Assembly (NCBI GenBank): GCA_026129405.1
Contig: JAHCID010000001.1
Span: 62,001-126,000 of the forward strand
Length of the DNA: 64,000 bases
Origin: a bacterium
GTDB taxonomy: Bacteria; Desulfobacterota; Binatia; DP-6
Direction of reading: 5' to 3'
Part shown: positions 17,849-25,352 of the stretch, in pieces
Layout of the letters: each line of letters starts with the position of its first letter
How positions within the stretch are numbered: the stretch's first letter is position 1
Translations under genes and position numbers: made by a program
Notes under the pieces: model-generated
What the model saw: the letters and a program-made list of their open reading frames with translations, nothing else
Database searches by the model: none
What the model was told of the DNA's origin: nothing

Positions 17849-18166
17849 ATGGACGACTCCAAGGACCGCCTCGGTAAGAAGCTCCAGGAGCGCGAGAAGG
17901 CTGCGGAAGACAGCTGGATCGCGGAGCAGGAGAAGGCGAAGCTCGAGAAGCTGCGCCGGGAGCAGGCGGCCTCGTCCCATCCGGCCATCTGCCCGAAGTG
18001 CGCGGCCCCGCTGCGCTGGGTGCGCCACCACGGCGTGTGCGTCGACGAGTGCCCCAACGGCCACGGCGTATGGATCGCGACCGAGGAGATCGAGACGTTG
18101 GCGCAGCGCGAGCGCGACGGCTGGGTCGGCCGCTACTTCTTCCAGCCGAAGCTCGTCACCGACTGA
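17849..18166 (+). CDS. TFIIB-type zinc-ribbon protein
   Basis: A 105-residue protein with a charged, probably coiled-coil N-terminal half (Lys/Glu-rich, residues 1-43) and a zinc ribbon in the C-terminal half: CPKCAAPLRWVRHHGVCVDECPNGHGVW. The C-x2-C plus the later Cys residues give a four-ligand site of the zf-TFIIB/COG3809 type. Function is unknown in this group. It lies 10 bases before riboflavin synthase on the same strand and is divergent from the TetR gene. Confidence 0.75.
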   Translation: MDDSKDRLGKKLQEREKAAEDSWIAEQEKAKLEKLRREQAASSHPAICPKCAAPLRWVRHHGVCVDECPNGHGVWIATEEIETLAQRERDGWVGRYFFQPKLVTD

Positions 18167-18176
18167 GCCCGGCCCC

Positions 18177-18857
18177 GTGTTCACGGGCATCATCCAGTCG
18201 ACCGGCCGCATCGAGCGGATCGCGAAGCAGGGCACCGGGCTGCGCCTGACCCTGCGGCCCGACCGCGCGATGCCGCGCCTGGCCCTCGGCGAGAGCGTCG
18301 CCGTCTCGGGCGCCTGCCTGACGGTGACGAGCGGCACCGGACGCCGCTTCACCGTCGATGTCTCCCCCGAGACGCTGCGCCGCACGACGCTCGGCACCGC
18401 CATCCGGGGGCGGCGCGTCAATCTCGAGCGCGCGCTGCGTCTCGGCGACCGCATGGGCGGCCACGTCGTCCAGGGCCACGTCGACGCCGTCGGCCGGGTC
18501 GACGCCATCACCCCCGACGGCGACTGGGTGCTCTACCGCTTCAAGGCCCCGCGCGGCGTCGCGCCCTATCTCGTCGAGAAGGGCTCGATCGCGATCGACG
18601 GCGTCAGCCTCACCGTCTTCGCCTGCCAGGGCGGCACGTTCACCGTGGCCCTGATCCCGCACACGCTGAAGGCGACGACGCTGATCGACCGCGTCCCCGG
18701 CGACGCGGTCAACCTCGAGGCCGACATCCTGCTGAAGCAGATCGCGGCCATGCTGAAGTCGCGGCTGCTGCCGGGCACGCGCGCGCCGGTGCAGGCCGCA
18801 CCGGCCAGGGCACGCGCCCGATCGCGACGCACTCCCGCCCGCCGCTCGGCGCGCTGA
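18177..18857 (+). CDS. ribE: Riboflavin synthase alpha chain
   Basis: A 226-residue enzyme that dismutates two 6,7-dimethyl-8-ribityllumazine molecules into riboflavin and the pyrimidine precursor. It begins with the invariant MFTGIIQ from a GTG codon and holds two lumazine-binding barrels: GACLTV and GHVVQGHVDAVG in the first to second junction and IDGVSLTV in the second. Normal length is about 200 residues; here the conserved part ends near residue 197 and is followed by a tail of about 28 residues made almost only of Arg, Ala, Pro and Thr. No other rib gene is adjacent and no FMN riboswitch fits in the 10-base gap upstream. Confidence 0.9.
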   Translation: MFTGIIQSTGRIERIAKQGTGLRLTLRPDRAMPRLALGESVAVSGACLTVTSGTGRRFTVDVSPETLRRTTLGTAIRGRRVNLERALRLGDRMGGHVVQGHVDAVGRVDAITPDGDWVLYRFKAPRGVAPYLVEKGSIAIDGVSLTVFACQGGTFTVALIPHTLKATTLIDRVPGDAVNLEADILLKQIAAMLKSRLLPGTRAPVQAAPARARARSRRTPARRSAR

Positions 18858-18860
18858 GCC

Positions 18861-20159
18861 TCAGGCGGAGCCGGCCGGCGGAATCCCGGCCAGGTGGGGC
18901 AGCAGCACCGAGGCCGGATCGACCTCCGACCCGAGCTGCTTGCCGACGCCCGAGAGGATGCCCATCACCCGGCCCACGAGGAGGATGTCGCCGGGGATCT
19001 GCACCAGCGGATTGCGCTTCAGCGCGTCCGGCACCTCGTCGTTGAACTTGGCGACGATCTCCGCGTCGGCGTAGGCGCGCCCGTTGCGCAGCGCGAAGCC
19101 GAGGAACGCCTCGCCCAGCACGGCGAGGCTCTCGTCGGACTCGTCGCGGGTGCGGAAGCCGAGGCCGCGGAAGGCCGCCGCGATCGCCGCCGCGTCGCCG
19201 GACACGATCGCGAACGTCAGCCGCAGGATGCCCTCGCGGAAGTCCGGCGGCAGCGACTTGGCGAGGCCGAAGTCGAGCAGCACGAGGCGCGGCCCCGGCT
19301 GGACGAGGATGTTCCCCGGATGCGGATCGCCGTGGAAGAAGCCGTGGGTGAGGATCATCTCGGCGAACAGCTCGGAGAGCCGCCGCGCGACGTCCCTCGG
19401 GTCGACGCCCATGCGCTCCAGCGCGGCGAGGTCGGTGCAACGGACGCCCGCGGCGAACTCGGTGACGAGGACGCGCCGCGACGACAGCTCGCGCACCACC
19501 CGCGGCACCATGACGTCGTCGCGACCGGCGAGGCATGCGGCCATGCGCTCGGCGTTCTCGGCCTCGTGCAGGAAGTCGAGCTCCAGCGGCACGAGCTTCG
19601 TCACCTCGTCGACCAGCACGCGGAAGTCGAAGCGCGGCTCGAGGCGCGCGAGGAGGCCGACGAGGAGCGCGAAGTTGCCGATGTCGTCGCGCACCACGTC
19701 GGCGATCTCGGGGTACTGGATCTTCACCGCGACCTCGCGGCCGTCGTGCAGGCGCGCGCGGTGCACCTGGGCCAGCGACGCCGAGGCCAGCGGTCGCTCG
19801 TCGAAGCGCGCGAACGCCGTGTCGACCGAGCGGCCGAGAGCGGCCTCGAGGTGCGGCCGCAGGCGCGCCAGCGGCCGCGGCGGTACGCGGTCCTGGAGCC
19901 GCGAGAGGACGGTGACGAACTGGTCGGGCAGGATGTCGGCGCGCGAGCCGAGGAACTGACAGACCTTGATCGGCAAACCCTGGAGGCGGATGGCGAGGTC
20001 GTACGCCGCCTCGGCGCTCCACTGATGATGGCGGTGCAGGGCTTCGTCGGGCTCGCCGACGCCGAGCCGGTAGCGCAGCTGGACGCCCTTGTAGCCGGCG
20101 TACACGCGCGCCACGAGCGCGGCCTGGGCGGCGAAGCGTCGCGGGCGTCCCGAGATCAT
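18861..20159 (-). CDS. ABC1/UbiB (AarF) family atypical kinase
   Basis: A 432-residue protein of the ABC1/ADCK/UbiB family, linked to ubiquinone synthesis or lipid/quinone homeostasis. The kinase-like fold is readable: PLASASLAQVHRA in place of the Ala-rich loop, VAVKIQYP with the nucleotide-binding Lys, GFFHGDPHPGNI as catalytic loop and LLDFG as metal motif. The family's KxGQ motif, which blocks the substrate site, reads KVCQF: Gly is replaced by Cys. It lacks the C-terminal membrane helices of UbiB. It converges with ribE, ends 3 bases from it, and is divergent from the small gene at 20241. Confidence 0.85.
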   Translation of the reverse strand: MISGRPRRFAAQAALVARVYAGYKGVQLRYRLGVGEPDEALHRHHQWSAEAAYDLAIRLQGLPIKVCQFLGSRADILPDQFVTVLSRLQDRVPPRPLARLRPHLEAALGRSVDTAFARFDERPLASASLAQVHRARLHDGREVAVKIQYPEIADVVRDDIGNFALLVGLLARLEPRFDFRVLVDEVTKLVPLELDFLHEAENAERMAACLAGRDDVMVPRVVRELSSRRVLVTEFAAGVRCTDLAALERMGVDPRDVARRLSELFAEMILTHGFFHGDPHPGNILVQPGPRLVLLDFGLAKSLPPDFREGILRLTFAIVSGDAAAIAAAFRGLGFRTRDESDESLAVLGEAFLGFALRNGRAYADAEIVAKFNDEVPDALKRNPLVQIPGDILLVGRVMGILSGVGKQLGSEVDPASVLLPHLAGIPPAGSA

Positions 20160-20240
20160 CGGCGCAGTCTGTGGGCACGGCCGTCCGGACGCAACGCCGG
20201 CTTGCGGGCGCGCGGGCCGAGCGGCTATCGAGCCCCCCGG

Positions 20241-20444
20241 ATGGACGCCATCGGGGACCCGAGCGACGCCGACGCCATCCGCGTGGGCGCACGGGTGATC
20301 ACGCTCCAGCGCCCCGGCATCTTCACCGTCGTCGCGCGCGCGGGGCGCATCTGCGAGATCGCCGGCGCGGACGGGACGCGGCTGCGCCTGCTCGACGTGG
20401 CGCTGCGTACGGTCGTCGACCCCGACACCGACCCGCCGGCCTGA
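20241..20444 (+). CDS. Small hypothetical protein
   Basis: A 67-residue acidic protein, possibly a small beta-barrel or SH3-like fold judged from its alternating hydrophobic strands (ARVITLQRPGIFTVVARAG). No family is recognised. It starts with ATG 81 bases from the ABC1 gene's start on the opposite strand and ends three bases from the oxygenase gene's stop. The clean fit between neighbours and normal codon composition support it. Confidence 0.45.
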   Translation: MDAIGDPSDADAIRVGARVITLQRPGIFTVVARAGRICEIAGADGTRLRLLDVALRTVVDPDTDPPA

Positions 20445-20447
20445 GCG

Positions 20448-21143
20448 TCATGCGGCGTCGTGGAAGATGACGCCGAGCGCGAAGCGCACGCCGCTGCGCA
20501 CCTCGCCGACGCCGTGCCGCACGCTCACGCGGTACGTGCCGCGGGTGCCCTGCACCGGGCGGTGCTGGTTCGGGAAGACCACGGCCTGCCCGCGTCCGAG
20601 CGGCACCACGCGCGCGATCGACTGGGCGCGCGGCCGCTGCTCGACGAGCAGGAACTCGCCGCCGCTGAAGTCCGCGCCGGGACGCGACAGGAGGATCGTC
20701 GCCTGGAGCGGGAAGGCGACCTCGCCGTAGCGGTCCTGATGGAGACAGTTGTAGCCGCCGGCGGCGTAGCGCAGCAGGAGCGGCGTCGGCCGGCGCTGCC
20801 CCGCCGCCGCGCAGCGGGCGAGGAAGCGGTCCAGCGTCGGCGGCAGGTCGGCGTCGCCGCAGGCGCGCGCCAGGAGCGGATACAGCCCGGCGCGCAGCGC
20901 GGCGACGAGCGGCGGCAGCGGCGCCGCGAAGTAGCGATACGTGCCCTCGCCGAAGCGGAAGCGGGCCATGTCGACCGTGCGGCGGAAGCGCGCGTCGTCG
21001 TTCCACGTGCGCACGAGCGCGTCGCACTCCGCGGCGGCCAGCAGCGGCGGCGTCAGCGCCCAGCCCTGGACCGCCAGATCGCGCGCCAGCGCCGCCGGAT
21101 CGATCCGCGCGACCCGGCGCGCGACGGCGTCGGCGGCGCTCAT
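20448..21143 (-). CDS. 2-oxoglutarate/Fe(II)-dependent oxygenase
   Basis: A 231-residue dioxygenase of the double-stranded beta-helix fold. The iron site is HQDRYG (His-x-Asp) with a distal His in YRVSVRHGV, and an Arg shortly after (VRSGVRFALGVIFHDA) that would bind 2-oxoglutarate. Proteins of this pattern (COG3826-like) often lie beside alkylation-repair genes. Here it is the last gene of a minus-strand set of ECF sigma factor, Ogt-Ada fusion and oxygenase, and its start overlaps the fusion's stop as ATGA. An oxidative dealkylation role like that of AlkB is an inference from context; it is not an AlkB sequence. Confidence 0.8.
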   Translation of the reverse strand: MSAADAVARRVARIDPAALARDLAVQGWALTPPLLAAAECDALVRTWNDDARFRRTVDMARFRFGEGTYRYFAAPLPPLVAALRAGLYPLLARACGDADLPPTLDRFLARCAAAGQRRPTPLLLRYAAGGYNCLHQDRYGEVAFPLQATILLSRPGADFSGGEFLLVEQRPRAQSIARVVPLGRGQAVVFPNQHRPVQGTRGTYRVSVRHGVGEVRSGVRFALGVIFHDAA

Positions 21144-21862
21144 GCGTCGCTCGGCCGGCAGGCGCGGCACGGCCGGTAGCCGACCTCGCCCGCGTCGGCG
21201 ACGCTCGCGAACGTCACCCGCCGGTCGCCGCGCACGCGCGCCAGGTCGGGACAGCCGACGCGGCAGACGATCCGCGTCGTGGTGCAGCCCTCGAGCGCCG
21301 GTGTGCGCCGCTCGAGCGCGAGCAGCGCGGCCTTGAGCGACGGCCCGGCGCCGAGCGAGTAGCCGCCGAGCCCGCCGTCGCTGCGCAGGACGCGGTGACA
21401 GGGGACGAGGAGCGGCACCGGGTTGCGGCCGAGCGCCGTGCCGACGGCACGCACCGCCCGCGGCGCCCCCGCGCACGCCGCGATCCAGGCGTAGGGCCGC
21501 GTCTCGCCGAACGGGATCGCCGCCGCCGCGTCGAGCACGCGGCGCTGGAACGGCGCCACCGCCGACAGGTCGACGGGCACCGAGAACCAGCTCCGCGTCC
21601 CCGCGAGGTAGGCGGCCAGCTCGTCGCGCGCCCGCTCGACGTGGCGGCGCGCGGCGCGATCGACGGGCGTGACCTGGACGCCCGGCTGCACGGCGGTCAC
21701 GCCCGCCGCGCTCGCCGTCACCGCGACCTCGCCCAGCAGGCGATCGACGGCGGCGCGCTCGTCGCGCAGGCGGGCGAGCGCGCGCCGGGCGAGATCGGGC
21801 GGCGGGGTCGTGGGCGCGAAGTGCGCCCGCAGCAGATCATCCACGGCGTCGGACGGATGCAT
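21140..21862 (-). CDS. O6-alkylguanine-DNA alkyltransferase fused to a C-terminal Ada zinc domain
   Basis: A 240-residue protein with unusual domain order. Residues about 1-65 are an uncharacterised helical segment. Residues about 70-180 are a complete Ogt/MGMT domain: FQRRVLDAAAAIPFG, the DNA-binding ARAVGT-like segment VRAVGTALGRNP, and acceptor cysteine C155 in PCHRV. Residues about 190-238 match the Ada methylphosphotriester-sensing zinc domain: C200 and C204 in VCRVGCP, then C232 and C235 in RPCRACRP, equal to E. coli Ada C38, C42, C69 and C72. In Ada this domain is N-terminal and followed by an AraC domain; here it is C-terminal and no AraC domain exists. It overlaps the upstream sigma factor by 26 bases and the oxygenase by 4. 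Confidence 0.85.
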   Translation of the reverse strand: MHPSDAVDDLLRAHFAPTTPPPDLARRALARLRDERAAVDRLLGEVAVTASAAGVTAVQPGVQVTPVDRAARRHVERARDELAAYLAGTRSWFSVPVDLSAVAPFQRRVLDAAAAIPFGETRPYAWIAACAGAPRAVRAVGTALGRNPVPLLVPCHRVLRSDGGLGGYSLGAGPSLKAALLALERRTPALEGCTTTRIVCRVGCPDLARVRGDRRVTFASVADAGEVGYRPCRACRPSDA

Positions 21863-22400
21863 GACGGTCCTCCTCGCCGAGCGCCGCGTGCAGGATGCGC
21901 TTCCCGCGCGCGAGCTGGCTCTTCACGGTATTGACGGAGATGCCGCGCACCCGCGCGAGCTCGGCGTGCGACAGCCCGTCGACGTAGCGCAGGGCGAGCA
22001 GCACGCGCGCCTCGCGCGGCACGCGGGCGAGCGCCCGATCGACGTCGAGCGCGCCGGCGTCGGCCGCCGCCGCGACGCCACCCGCCGGGAGCGCGGCGGC
22101 GGTCCGCGCCGTACGCGCGGCGCGGCGCAGCTCGTCGATGCAGACGTTGGCGAGGATGCGGTACAGCCACGTCGACACCGCCCATTCGGGCCGGTACGAG
22201 CCCGCCGCGGTCCAGCAGCGCACCAGCGCCAGCTGCACGGCGTCCTCGGCGTCGGCCGCGGTGGGGAGCAGACGCCGGGCCACGACGTGCAGCCGGGGCG
22301 TGTAGCGCTCCGCCAGGGCGGCGAAGGCGCCGGCGTCGCCGCCCGCGATCCGTTGCATGAGGGCGCGCTCCTCGTCTGCCGCCGGTTCGGTGGCTCGCAT
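21837..22400 (-). CDS. ECF-type RNA polymerase sigma factor
   Basis: A 187-residue sigma-70 family protein with region 2 (PRLHVVARRLLPTAADAEDAVQ and STWLYRILANVCIDELRR) and region 4 (REARVLLALRYVDGLSHAELA and VRGISVNTVKSQLARGK), joined by an Ala-rich linker; regions 1.1 and 3 are absent, as in ECF factors. Its 3' end overlaps the Ogt-Ada fusion gene by 26 bases, so translation of the two is likely coupled. No classical anti-sigma gene with a membrane helix follows. It probably directs transcription of its own operon, an alkylation-repair set. Confidence 0.85.
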   Translation of the reverse strand: MRATEPAADEERALMQRIAGGDAGAFAALAERYTPRLHVVARRLLPTAADAEDAVQLALVRCWTAAGSYRPEWAVSTWLYRILANVCIDELRRAARTARTAAALPAGGVAAAADAGALDVDRALARVPREARVLLALRYVDGLSHAELARVRGISVNTVKSQLARGKRILHAALGEEDRHASVRRRG

Positions 22401-22407
22401 GATCGGT

Positions 22408-22421
22408 CGGATGTACGTCCG
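22408..22421. promoter_or_regulatory. 14-bp palindromic element before the ECF sigma gene
   Basis: CGGATGTACGTCCG is a near-perfect inverted repeat with one mismatch pair. It lies 8 bases upstream of the ATG of the sigma gene, in a 48-base gap before the 3' end of the ThiO-like gene. It could be an operator or part of the leader; no match to a known ECF promoter was made. Confidence 0.3.
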
Positions 22422-22448
22422 CCGGCGTCCGGAGGGGTGGAACGGGGA

Positions 22449-23553
22449 TCAGGCCGGCAGAAACGGGATCGCTTCGGGCGGCGGCGGCGTCCCGGCGACC
22501 AGCGCGGCGACGGTCTCGGCCGCGATCGGGGCGAGGAGGATGCCGTTGCGGTAGTGCCCGCTCGCCACGATCAGGTTCTCCAGCGACGGCTCGCGGCCGA
22601 CGAGCGGTCCACCCGCGGGCGCGCAGGGCCGGATGCCGGCCCACAGCCGCCGGATCGGCCAGCCCGCCGCCTCGGGTACGATCCGCGCGAGGTCGGCGAG
22701 CAGCGTCGCGACGCCGGTGGCGGTGACCGCGCGCGCGAAGCCCTGCGGCTCGACGGTGCCGCCGCACCACGCCTCGTCGGGCGGCTGCGGCGTGAGGCAG
22801 CCGTCGGCGTGCATGACGACGTGGCGCAGCGCCGCGGGCGGCATCGCCAGCGCGAGCATCTGCCCCGGCACCGGCACGACGCCGACGTCGGGTGCGAGAC
22901 CGGCGATGCGCGGCGTCCACGCGCCGGCGGCCAGCACCACCGTCCCGGGCGCGACCCAGGTGTCGGTGATGCGTACCCGCGCGACACGGTCGCCCGCCCG
23001 CACCGCCGCGTGCACCTCGCCGCCGGGGACGAGCACCGCCCCCCGCTTCCAGGCCGCGGCTGCGAGCGCCGCGACCAGGCGGCCGCTGTGCACCGTGGCG
23101 TCGCCGGCGAAGCGGGCGGCGCCGAGCGCGGCGGGCGTCACCCGCGGCTCCGCGGCGCGCAGCGCCGCGGCGATCGAGCCACTCGGCCGCGAAGCCGGCG
23201 GCGGCCTGGCGCGACGCCATCGCGCGCAGCGCCGTCGCTTCGAGCGCCGCGCACGCCAGCTGGAGGACGCCGCAGACGCGGAACGCGACGTCGATGCCGG
23301 TGTCCGCCTCGAGCGACGCCGCCAGCGCGTCGAGGCGCGCGCGGCTGGCACGGCGCAGGGCGAGACGCGGCCCGTCGTCGTCGCCGCTCGCCGCCGCGAG
23401 CACGCCCGCGGCGGCGCCGGACGCCTCGCTGCCGATCGCGCCGCGCTCGGCGAGCAGCACCGACGCCCCCTGCCCCGCCAGGGCGTGCGCGACGGCGCAG
23501 CCGATCACGCCGCCGCCGACGACGAGCACGTCGGGCGCCGCGGGCAGGGTCAC
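22449..23553 (-). pseudogene. thiO: Glycine/D-amino-acid oxidase-like FAD enzyme (ThiO-like), frameshifted
   Basis: The 5' part (GTG at 23553) encodes the FAD-binding motif VLVVGGGVIGCAVA, a SEASGAAAGVLA segment and about 125 residues of a DadA/ThiO oxidase. The frame then breaks close to 23172. The 3' part continues in another frame with AALRAAEPRVTPAALG, TVVLAAGAWTPRI, LWAGIRPCAPAGGPLVGR and LIVASGHYRNGILLAP, the usual end. Removing one G at 23172 (plus-strand view) restores a single protein of about 367 residues. Either the gene is freshly broken or the assembly has a one-base error; the rest is undamaged. ThiO makes the iminoacetate for thiamin thiazole. Its start overlaps the ETF stop as GTGA, so an ETF-linked amine dehydrogenase is an alternative reading. 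Confidence 0.75.
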
Positions 23554-25352
23554 GGCCGCAGCGCGCTCTCGAGGTGGGGCAGCAGCTCGAGCACGTCGGC
23601 GACGACGGTCACGTCGGCCGCCTTGCGAATGGGCGCCTTCGGGCTCTTGTTGACGCCGACGATGGTGCCGGCACGACGCAGCCCGACCATGTGCTCGAGC
23701 GTGCCGCCGACGCCGAGCCCGACGTAGAGGCGCGGCGCGACGGCGCGGCCGGTGAGCCCGATCTGGAGCTGGCGCGGCAGCCAGCCGGCGTCGGTGACCT
23801 CGCGCGTCGCGGCGACCGCACCGCCGATGCGCGCGGCCAGCGCGCAGATCGCCGGCAGCGCCGTCGGTCCGCCGACGCCCTTGCCGACGCCGAGCACGAT
23901 CGGCGCCTCGTCGAGATCGGCGTCCGTGCCCGCCGGCAGCGGCGTCGACGCGGCGACGCGGACGCGCGACGCCGGCGTGCCGGCGTCGAGCCGCACGATC
24001 TCGGCGCGCCGCGACGGATCGGGCCCCGCCGCGTGCAGCAGGCCGGGACGCACCGTCGCCATGTCGGGGATCGTGCGCGACAGGATCGGCGCCACGACGG
24101 TGCCGCCGAACGCCGGCTTCATGGCGCGCACGTTGCCCTCGGGATCGAGCTCGAGGTCGATGGCGTCGCCGGTGAGCCCGAGCCCGAGCCGCGCCGCCAC
24201 CCGCGGTGCGAGGTCGCGGCCGCGCACCGTCGAGCCGAGCAGCACGAGCCGCGGGCGGCGCGTGCGGATCGCGGTCGCGAGGATCTCGGCGTGTGCGTCG
24301 GTGGTGTACGGGTCGAGGGCCTCGTGGTCGGCGACCAAGATGCGATCGGCGCCCGCGGCGGCGAGCGCGGCGGCGTGGGCCGCGCCCGGGCCGATCACGA
24401 CCGCCTCGACCGGAGCGCCGAGCGCCGTGGCGAGCAGCGCGGCCTTGGTGAGCAGCTCGAACGTGACCGGCCGCACCGCGACCGCATGGCTCTCTACCAC
24501 GACCCACACCGGCGGCGCGTTGCCCGGCGTGCGCGCGGGCAACGGCTCGCGCGGCGGCGCGGGCGTGAGGGCGCCGAGCGCGTGCAGCCGCTCGCGCAGC
24601 CGCGCCGCCAGCTCGGCGACGTCGCCCCCCTCGAGGATATCGCCGGCGCGCGTCACCGCCACCTCTTCCAGCTGCGCCACCCACGTCGGTGAGCCCTCGG
24701 CGCCGACCTGGTTCGGCGCCAGCCCGAGGTCGGCGAGGCTGCGCCCGGCGATCGGCTTCTCGGCCGCGGCCTGGCGCTCCACCTTGTTGGGGAAGCGCTC
24801 CTCGGCGATGTCCTCGGCGACGGAGATCAGCACCGGCAGCGCGCCGGTGACGAGCTCGAAGCCGTCGTCGGTCTCGCGCTCGGCCTCGAAGGTGCGCGCG
24901 ACCGGATCGAGCTCGAGGCGACGCACGACGGTGGCCTGCGCCCAGCCGAGCAGCTCCGCCGTCTCGGGCCCCACCTGACCGGTCTCGGCGTCGACGCTCG
25001 AGCGGCCGACCAGCACGAGATCGGGCGCCTCGGCGCGGATCGCCGCCGCGAGCGCGCGCGCCGTCGCCAGCGTGTCCGAGCCCGCGAGCGCCGGGTCGCC
25101 GACGTGGACGCCGCGGTCGGCGCCGAGCGCGAGGCAGTGCTCCAACGACTCCCGCGCCGCCGGCGGGCCCATCGTCAGCGCGACCACCTCGCCGCCGTGC
25201 TTCGCGCGCAGCGCGACCGCCGCGACGAGCGCGCGTACGTCGAAGGCGCTCGCCTCGCCGCGGACGCCGTCGCGCACGAGCCGCTTCGTCTCCGGGTCGA
25301 AGCGGAGCTGGGACATGATCGGGACGTGCTTCACGCACACGACGACGCGCAT
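23550..25352 (-). CDS. Fused electron transfer flavoprotein, EtfB-EtfA in one chain
   Basis: A 600-residue single polypeptide. Residues 1 to about 255 are the beta subunit: VVVCVKHVPI, AFDVRALVAAVALR, VVALTMGPP, DAETGQVGPETAELLG and EERFPNK. Residues about 270-600 are the alpha subunit, with VWVVVESHA opening it and the FAD domain at the end: YVGLGVGGTLEHMVGLRRAGTIVGVN, KAPIRKAADVTVVAD. The two are normally separate genes. ETF takes electrons from acyl-CoA and amine dehydrogenases and passes them to ETF:quinone oxidoreductase. No such dehydrogenase or quinone oxidoreductase gene is adjacent; the next gene downstream is a ThiO-like FAD enzyme overlapping by GTGA. Confidence 0.85.
   Translation of the reverse strand: MRVVVCVKHVPIMSQLRFDPETKRLVRDGVRGEASAFDVRALVAAVALRAKHGGEVVALTMGPPAARESLEHCLALGADRGVHVGDPALAGSDTLATARALAAAIRAEAPDLVLVGRSSVDAETGQVGPETAELLGWAQATVVRRLELDPVARTFEAERETDDGFELVTGALPVLISVAEDIAEERFPNKVERQAAAEKPIAGRSLADLGLAPNQVGAEGSPTWVAQLEEVAVTRAGDILEGGDVAELAARLRERLHALGALTPAPPREPLPARTPGNAPPVWVVVESHAVAVRPVTFELLTKAALLATALGAPVEAVVIGPGAAHAAALAAAGADRILVADHEALDPYTTDAHAEILATAIRTRRPRLVLLGSTVRGRDLAPRVAARLGLGLTGDAIDLELDPEGNVRAMKPAFGGTVVAPILSRTIPDMATVRPGLLHAAGPDPSRRAEIVRLDAGTPASRVRVAASTPLPAGTDADLDEAPIVLGVGKGVGGPTALPAICALAARIGGAVAATREVTDAGWLPRQLQIGLTGRAVAPRLYVGLGVGGTLEHMVGLRRAGTIVGVNKSPKAPIRKAADVTVVADVLELLPHLESALRP

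Follow-up and report, generated by a model that had tools for sequence, protein, structure and literature searches.

A three-gene operon in the window, the 64,000-nucleotide stretch of bacterial DNA analysed here, probably encodes a self-inducing alkylation response in which an MGMT-Ada fusion protein acts as the anti-sigma factor of an ECF sigma factor, and in which alkyl transfer to cysteine C155 and/or C200 of the fusion would free the sigma factor. The proposal is based on gene content, intact catalytic residues, conservation, translational coupling, an anti-sigma motif in relatives, and a conserved promoter. The operon is a minus-strand trio of overlapping genes for an ECF sigma factor, an Ogt/MGMT-Ada zinc fusion, and a PF09859 oxygenase. 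Pfam matches and coordinates bear out this gene content, which an initial annotation had read from the sequence at the same positions. The promoter elements, genes and domains are as follows.

22436..22442, minus strand: -35 element TTCCACC of the operon's ECF-type promoter, a motif common to window-type relatives
22412..22417, minus strand: -10 element CGTACA (clade consensus CGTATA) of the same motif, 11 nt upstream of the sigma ATG
21837..22400, minus strand: ECF sigma factor, 187 aa (Pfam Sigma70_r2, 7e-18; r4_2, 7e-15)
21869..21875, minus strand: Shine-Dalgarno sequence GAGGAGG of the fusion gene, within the sigma gene (read from the sequence; Shine-Dalgarno and overlap are kept in relatives)
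21140..21862, minus strand: fusion protein, 240 aa, with a two-helix N-terminal segment, MGMT and an Ada zinc domain (Pfam, AlphaFold model)
21728..21862, minus strand: fusion aa 1-45, with two helices (3-14 and 24-45), proposed here as a reduced anti-sigma domain (AlphaFold pLDDT 87-93; profile match to relative L298)
21308..21553, minus strand: fusion aa 104-185, MGMT DNA-binding/active-site domain with acceptor C155 in PCHRV (Pfam PF01035, 4e-29; M. tuberculosis OGT, 4wx9)
21152..21289, minus strand: fusion aa 192-237, Ada zinc domain with C200/C204/C232/C235 (Pfam PF02805, Ada_Zn_binding, 1e-6; match to 1u8b)
20448..21143, minus strand: 2OG-Fe(II) oxygenase, PF09859 (Oxygenase-NA), 231 aa (Pfam, 1.9e-66)

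The sigma factor has the composition of an ECF protein, with regions 2 (aa 29-97) and 4 (r4_2, aa 119-168) alone and no region 3, and it scores 90.6 bits against TIGR02937, for which the cut-off is 42.9. The fusion gene starts inside the sigma gene, as had been proposed, with its ATG at 21862 lying 26 nt within it, and Pfam has no match for fusion residues 1-45. The stop of the fusion and the ATG of the oxygenase share 4 nt, and the oxygenase is translationally coupled to the fusion; the protein matches PF09859 over all family positions (1-172 of 172) with 223 bits against a cut-off of 26.2. No Rfam element was found within positions 18000-25000 of the window. Directly upstream of the sigma gene lies thiO (glycine oxidase), split over two frames near 23170-23200: its parts are 22449-23351 (minus strand) and another frame of the open reading frame 21718-25338 (minus strand), with the FAD-binding N-terminus out of frame with the 300-aa C-terminus, which makes thiO either a pseudogene or the site of a sequencing error.

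Both repair chemistries of the fusion appear intact. PF02805 is matched with 29 bits against a cut-off of 23, and in an alignment of 49 rows C155 and the quartet C200/C204/C232/C235 are invariant, so that the methyl-acceptor residues of an E. coli-type Ada are present. The AlphaFold model built from this alignment has a mean pLDDT of 94 and consists of two helices (3-14 and 24-45), an MGMT fold, and an Ada-like domain. In a structure search that left out aa 1-37, the model matched M. tuberculosis OGT (MtOGT, 4wx9) with a Z score of 17.9 over 145 residues and methylated N-Ada (1u8b) with a Z score of 8.1 and an rmsd of 1.1 over 51 residues; C200 is the counterpart of Ada C38. The domain order is not that of E. 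coli-type Ada, in which an N-terminal zinc domain is followed by an AraC-type HTH: here the zinc domain is C-terminal and there is no AraC domain. The fusion has the only PF02805 domain of the 5.63 Mb genome, and classical Ada is therefore absent from that genome, in agreement with the initial annotation. No second Ada zinc domain was found in the window genome or in the Chloroflexi, Acidimicrobiia and Rokubacteria genomes checked. The window genome has two further MGMT genes (C1:401606-401944 and C4:348330-348629), with no exact promoter motif nearby.

A survey for ECF genes followed by ogt-Ada(Zn) fusions, the check that the initial annotation had called for, covered the class of the window, named genomes, and the phyla or classes of three relatives, from which regions were then extracted. 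It yielded 238 non-redundant sigma-MGMT pairs from at least five phyla, picked by similarity to the fusion, so that the pair counts are not independent samples. Named members belong to Rokubacteria/Methylomirabilota, to the 'Deltaproteobacteria' of the window's class, to Acidobacteria, to Chloroflexi, and to Actinobacteria (Nonomuraea, Actinokineospora, Actinoallomurus). An Ada tail is present in 207 of the 238 pairs, which means that the Ogt-Ada fusion architecture is not a product of chance; the remaining 31 sigma-linked MGMTs lack it. Among the MGMTs for which no sigma gene was found alongside, 32 lack an Ada tail and 19 have one, several of the 19 at contig ends. In 142 of the 238 pairs the start of the fusion gene overlaps the sigma stop as ATGA, with a Shine-Dalgarno sequence, an arrangement typical of translationally coupled sigma/anti-sigma genes. 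Across the phyla in the sample the MGMT gene always comes first after sigma, while other operon members vary: among 39 scanned neighbours 3' of the fusion, 23 are EamA genes and five Oxygenase-NA, and the oxygenase lies directly downstream in 12 of the 34 window-type pairs for which enough sequence was available. The EamA-family transporter is the usual third gene of the Chloroflexi operons (L044-L110).

The idea that the fusion holds the sigma factor, put forward in the initial annotation, draws support from relatives in which a zinc anti-sigma motif is still visible, but the window protein itself has lost it. HxxxCxxC, the mark of a ZAS/zf-HC2 domain, is absent from aa 1-65 of the window fusion. 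In 25 pairs, however, HxxxCxxC opens the fusion, and MGMT and Ada come after it. The zf-HC2 model passes its Pfam cut-off of 22.2 bits in two of these (L301 with 29.2 bits, L307 with 25.7 bits) and stays below it in the others tested. Of the 25 fusions, 23 fall in one clade (support 98). L298 and L300, which carry HxxxCxxC with a sub-threshold zf-HC2 match, fall in the window's own 50-member clade, with support of 93 in the MGMT-core tree and 99 in the sigma tree, and L298 has 58% of its core residues in common with the window protein. A profile of the window-type N-terminal segment, in which L11 and P21 are at least 90% conserved in the 49-row alignment, matches L298 at aa 40-71, just past the zinc motif, with 15.0 bits, whereas the best of 2000 shuffles reaches 7.7. 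These sequences are most simply read as loss of the zinc part in the window lineage, with the two-helix part retained, and the N-terminus of the fusion appears to descend from, or at least to resemble, an anti-sigma domain. The remaining two helices may still bind sigma; as CnrY illustrates, a small helical segment can act as an anti-sigma factor without zinc. Many Rokubacteria have two paralogous sigma/MGMT-Ada systems, one with the zinc anti-sigma motif and one with a reduced N-terminus as in the window (L301-L321 and L212-L241, respectively).

Direct-coupling analysis of 236 concatenated pairs (Neff about 162) placed the best inter-protein pairs at rank 17 and below, with no signal above noise, and aa 1-45 of the fusion were not enriched among inter-protein pairs. 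The partial distance correlation between sigma and the N-terminal segment of the fusion was 0.39, and neighbouring variable segments of MGMT gave equal or higher values. We also modelled the two proteins with AlphaFold as one tethered chain, a modelling device in which CATG is read as one codon and which makes no claim of frameshifting. Its sigma part superposes on SigW in an RsiW-like arrangement (Z 18.5 over 157 residues), parts of the fusion being of low confidence, and, across its two domains, on CnrH in complex with CnrY (Z 16.5 over 154 residues), but this arrangement may be a default, because most ECF templates are anti-sigma-bound.

Might the sigma factor be controlled in some other way, through its own transcription or by an unlinked anti-sigma factor, with the MGMT fusion simply one of the target genes in its operon? 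Operons often include genes that are effectors only, examples here being those for the oxygenase and EamA. Furthermore, sigma group ECF122 (exemplar WP_057211282.1, from Cellulomonas), whose members have a 6-O-methylguanine-DNA methyltransferase neighbour, is classified as having no anti-sigma factor and an unknown mechanism (2022 review PMC8999054, after Casas-Pastor et al. 2021). We nevertheless regard such control as unlikely. It leaves unaccounted for the constant place of the fusion next to sigma across phyla amid varying companions, a form of ATGA coupling typical of sigma/anti-sigma pairs, the anti-sigma motif in 25 fusions, and the conservation of an N-terminal segment that is dispensable for repair.

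Window-type relatives have a clade-specific ECF-type motif, TTCCACCC-N16/17-CGTATA, 9-18 nt before sigma. The window promoter itself reads TTCCACC-N18-CGTACA (own-genome site C1:84412-84442). A conserved ECF-type promoter directly upstream of sigma is the hallmark of an autoregulated ECF operon, and it counts, with the motif in relatives, on the side of the fusion as anti-sigma factor. The exact pattern TTCCACCN{17,18}CGTATA found 34 sites in 42 mostly Rokubacteria genomes, against one for the reversed control. Most of these lie 9-18 nt upstream of sigma starts; two others precede EamA-like transporters. A relaxed pattern applied to the window's own genome returned two sites, one of them that of the operon, and its reversed control likewise returned two; this promoter search identified no second regulon gene there. 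The exact promoter was also not found in five relatives from the window's class (G008, G011, G018, G117, G118). The closest class relatives (L003, L004, L005, L116, L117) have the pair with no clear TTCCACC/CGTATA promoter, and may use a diverged sigma specificity. The short distance of 11 nt between the -10 box and the sigma ATG, which in relatives is 9-18 nt, would make the sigma mRNA nearly leaderless. The initial annotation had noted a palindrome just before the sigma start. It is present (CGCCGGCG), but it is no conserved element: it lies within the spacer between -35 and -10, whose sequence is unconserved among relatives, and we rejected it as an operator.

Pairs from Chloroflexi and Actinobacteria share a different promoter, TGCAACC-N14-GGTGTTC, recovered in 100 of 118 cases, against 25 in a shuffled EM run; the best exact pair of elements occurs in 65 of 112, against at most 10. 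One genome (G930) has four TGCAACC-type sites, upstream of the sigma operon, a second ogt (L335), an EamA transporter, and an isocitrate lyase/PEP mutase-like gene, and another (G742) has one upstream of another MGMT/ogt (L385), these regulon genes being named by eye from translations, with no family scan. The isocitrate lyase/PEP mutase-like gene lies 3' of the promoter motif at L337 (G930:C182). EamA-like genes apart from the operon and with a like promoter occur at L329, L338, L351, L366, L404, L424 and L434. We set aside as chance matches the candidates ahead of dtd genes and several others of low complexity, all of which lie in or near coding sequence. From the promoter sites, and from the EamA and oxygenase neighbours, we conclude that the operon, together with a small regulon linked to alkylation, very probably depends on its own sigma factor. 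The sites before second ogt genes favour the alkylation response envisaged by the initial annotation, but C200, which it named beside C155 as a possible trigger, cannot be the general one: 31 sigma-linked MGMTs have no Ada tail. C155 is therefore more likely to be the trigger shared by all, and C200 a second sensor. Since the promoter sequences are in hand and several of the genera are in culture (Nonomuraea, Actinokineospora, Actinoallomurus), the proposal is directly testable.

The alkylated fusion could instead bind sigma without restraining it and recruit the sigma-RNA polymerase to the promoter, much as E. coli Ada contacts region 4 of sigma70; a review of Ada (PMC4437013) cites the contact between Ada and the sigma subunit, and the Ada zinc domain of the fusion has all four cysteines. 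Such a role as co-activator seems to us improbable, and rather more so than control of sigma by other means. Apart from the zinc domain the fusion has no reader of DNA, AraC-type or other, nor is any operator conserved besides -35 and -10. The zinc domain itself is missing from 31 sigma-linked MGMTs, and some relatives have an anti-sigma zinc motif in place of an activator domain.

We return to the fusion as a restraint on sigma: a self-amplifying sigma factor needs one, and the fusion is the only protein always coupled to it. The N-terminus of the fusion would serve as a soluble anti-sigma domain, derived by reduction from the ZAS/zf-HC2 domain still seen in relatives. In an undamaged cell, the co-translated fusion would hold sigma. 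On damage, C155 would take an alkyl group from O6-alkylguanine, and/or C200 from a DNA phosphotriester, and the irreversibly alkylated fusion, altered in shape or stability, would let sigma go. Free sigma would then transcribe its own operon from TTCCACC-N18-CGTACA, giving more sigma, more of the repair/sensor protein, and more oxygenase, until, with the damage over, new unalkylated fusion could recapture sigma. Binding of sigma by the fusion, its release on alkylation, the trigger cysteine, and the substrate of the oxygenase are parts of this scheme that we infer. Zinc anti-sigma domains such as RsrA respond to thiol oxidation, and the zinc motif does occur in relatives, but release of sigma by redox or zinc chemistry at the cysteines rather than by alkyl transfer is very improbable, given that the ZAS cysteines are lost from the window protein, that the invariant cysteines are the repair acceptors, and that regulon sites precede ogt genes. 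For the wider proposition, there is a somewhat better than even chance that suicide DNA-repair enzymes doubling as anti-sigma factors form a general class in at least five phyla, with the repair event as the signal and the zinc fold cut down to two helices in the window lineage.

The literature searched contained no description of an anti-sigma factor of MGMT type, and a search of the Ada review (PMC4437013) and of a review on alkyltransferases (PMC10779285) turned up no link between sigma and such a fusion. ECF122 and the window operon are alike in having an MGMT gene adjoining an ECF sigma gene, a likeness of neighbourhood, and the ECF122 review (PMC8999054) makes no mention of an Ada zinc tail, an anti-sigma domain, a promoter or a regulon. 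The sigma-MGMT neighbourhood is thus already on record, whereas, as far as the literature searched shows, the Ada tail, anti-sigma motif, coupling, promoters and regulon are not.

In our best model, the window operon pairs sigma with a soluble anti-sigma factor whose sensor is of a new type. It resembles the ZAS/zf-HC2 systems RsiW-SigW, ChrR-RpoE and RslA-SigL in having sigma, then a coupled gene, with an N-terminal HxxxCxxC in 25 relatives and a C-terminal sensor. It differs from them in that the window fusion has lost the zinc motif and would sense through a suicide DNA-repair enzyme rather than a redox, cupin or membrane sensor. The cytosolic part of CnrY is a small zinc-free helical anti-sigma segment. 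The N-terminus of the window fusion could be such a segment, and the modelled sigma factor superposes on CnrH, but CnrY is a membrane protein that senses metals, unlike the fusion, and the likeness is one of structure. With E. coli Ada, the fusion shares the combination of MGMT cysteine and Ada zinc cysteine chemistries in one protein and, as proposed here for the window, a self-induced repair operon. The two differ in that the fusion has its zinc domain at the C-terminus and no AraC activator, and in that an ECF sigma factor takes the place of the Ada-box mechanism. In the textbook version of the adaptive response, Ada acts by binding DNA as an activator; in the window operon, the two sensing cysteines of Ada appear instead to be wired to an ECF sigma factor. 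If the model is true, it would explain the control of ECF122-like sigma factors and the sensing of alkylation in organisms without classical Ada, and it would constitute a second bacterial logic for the adaptive response to alkylation, independent of AraC-type Ada.
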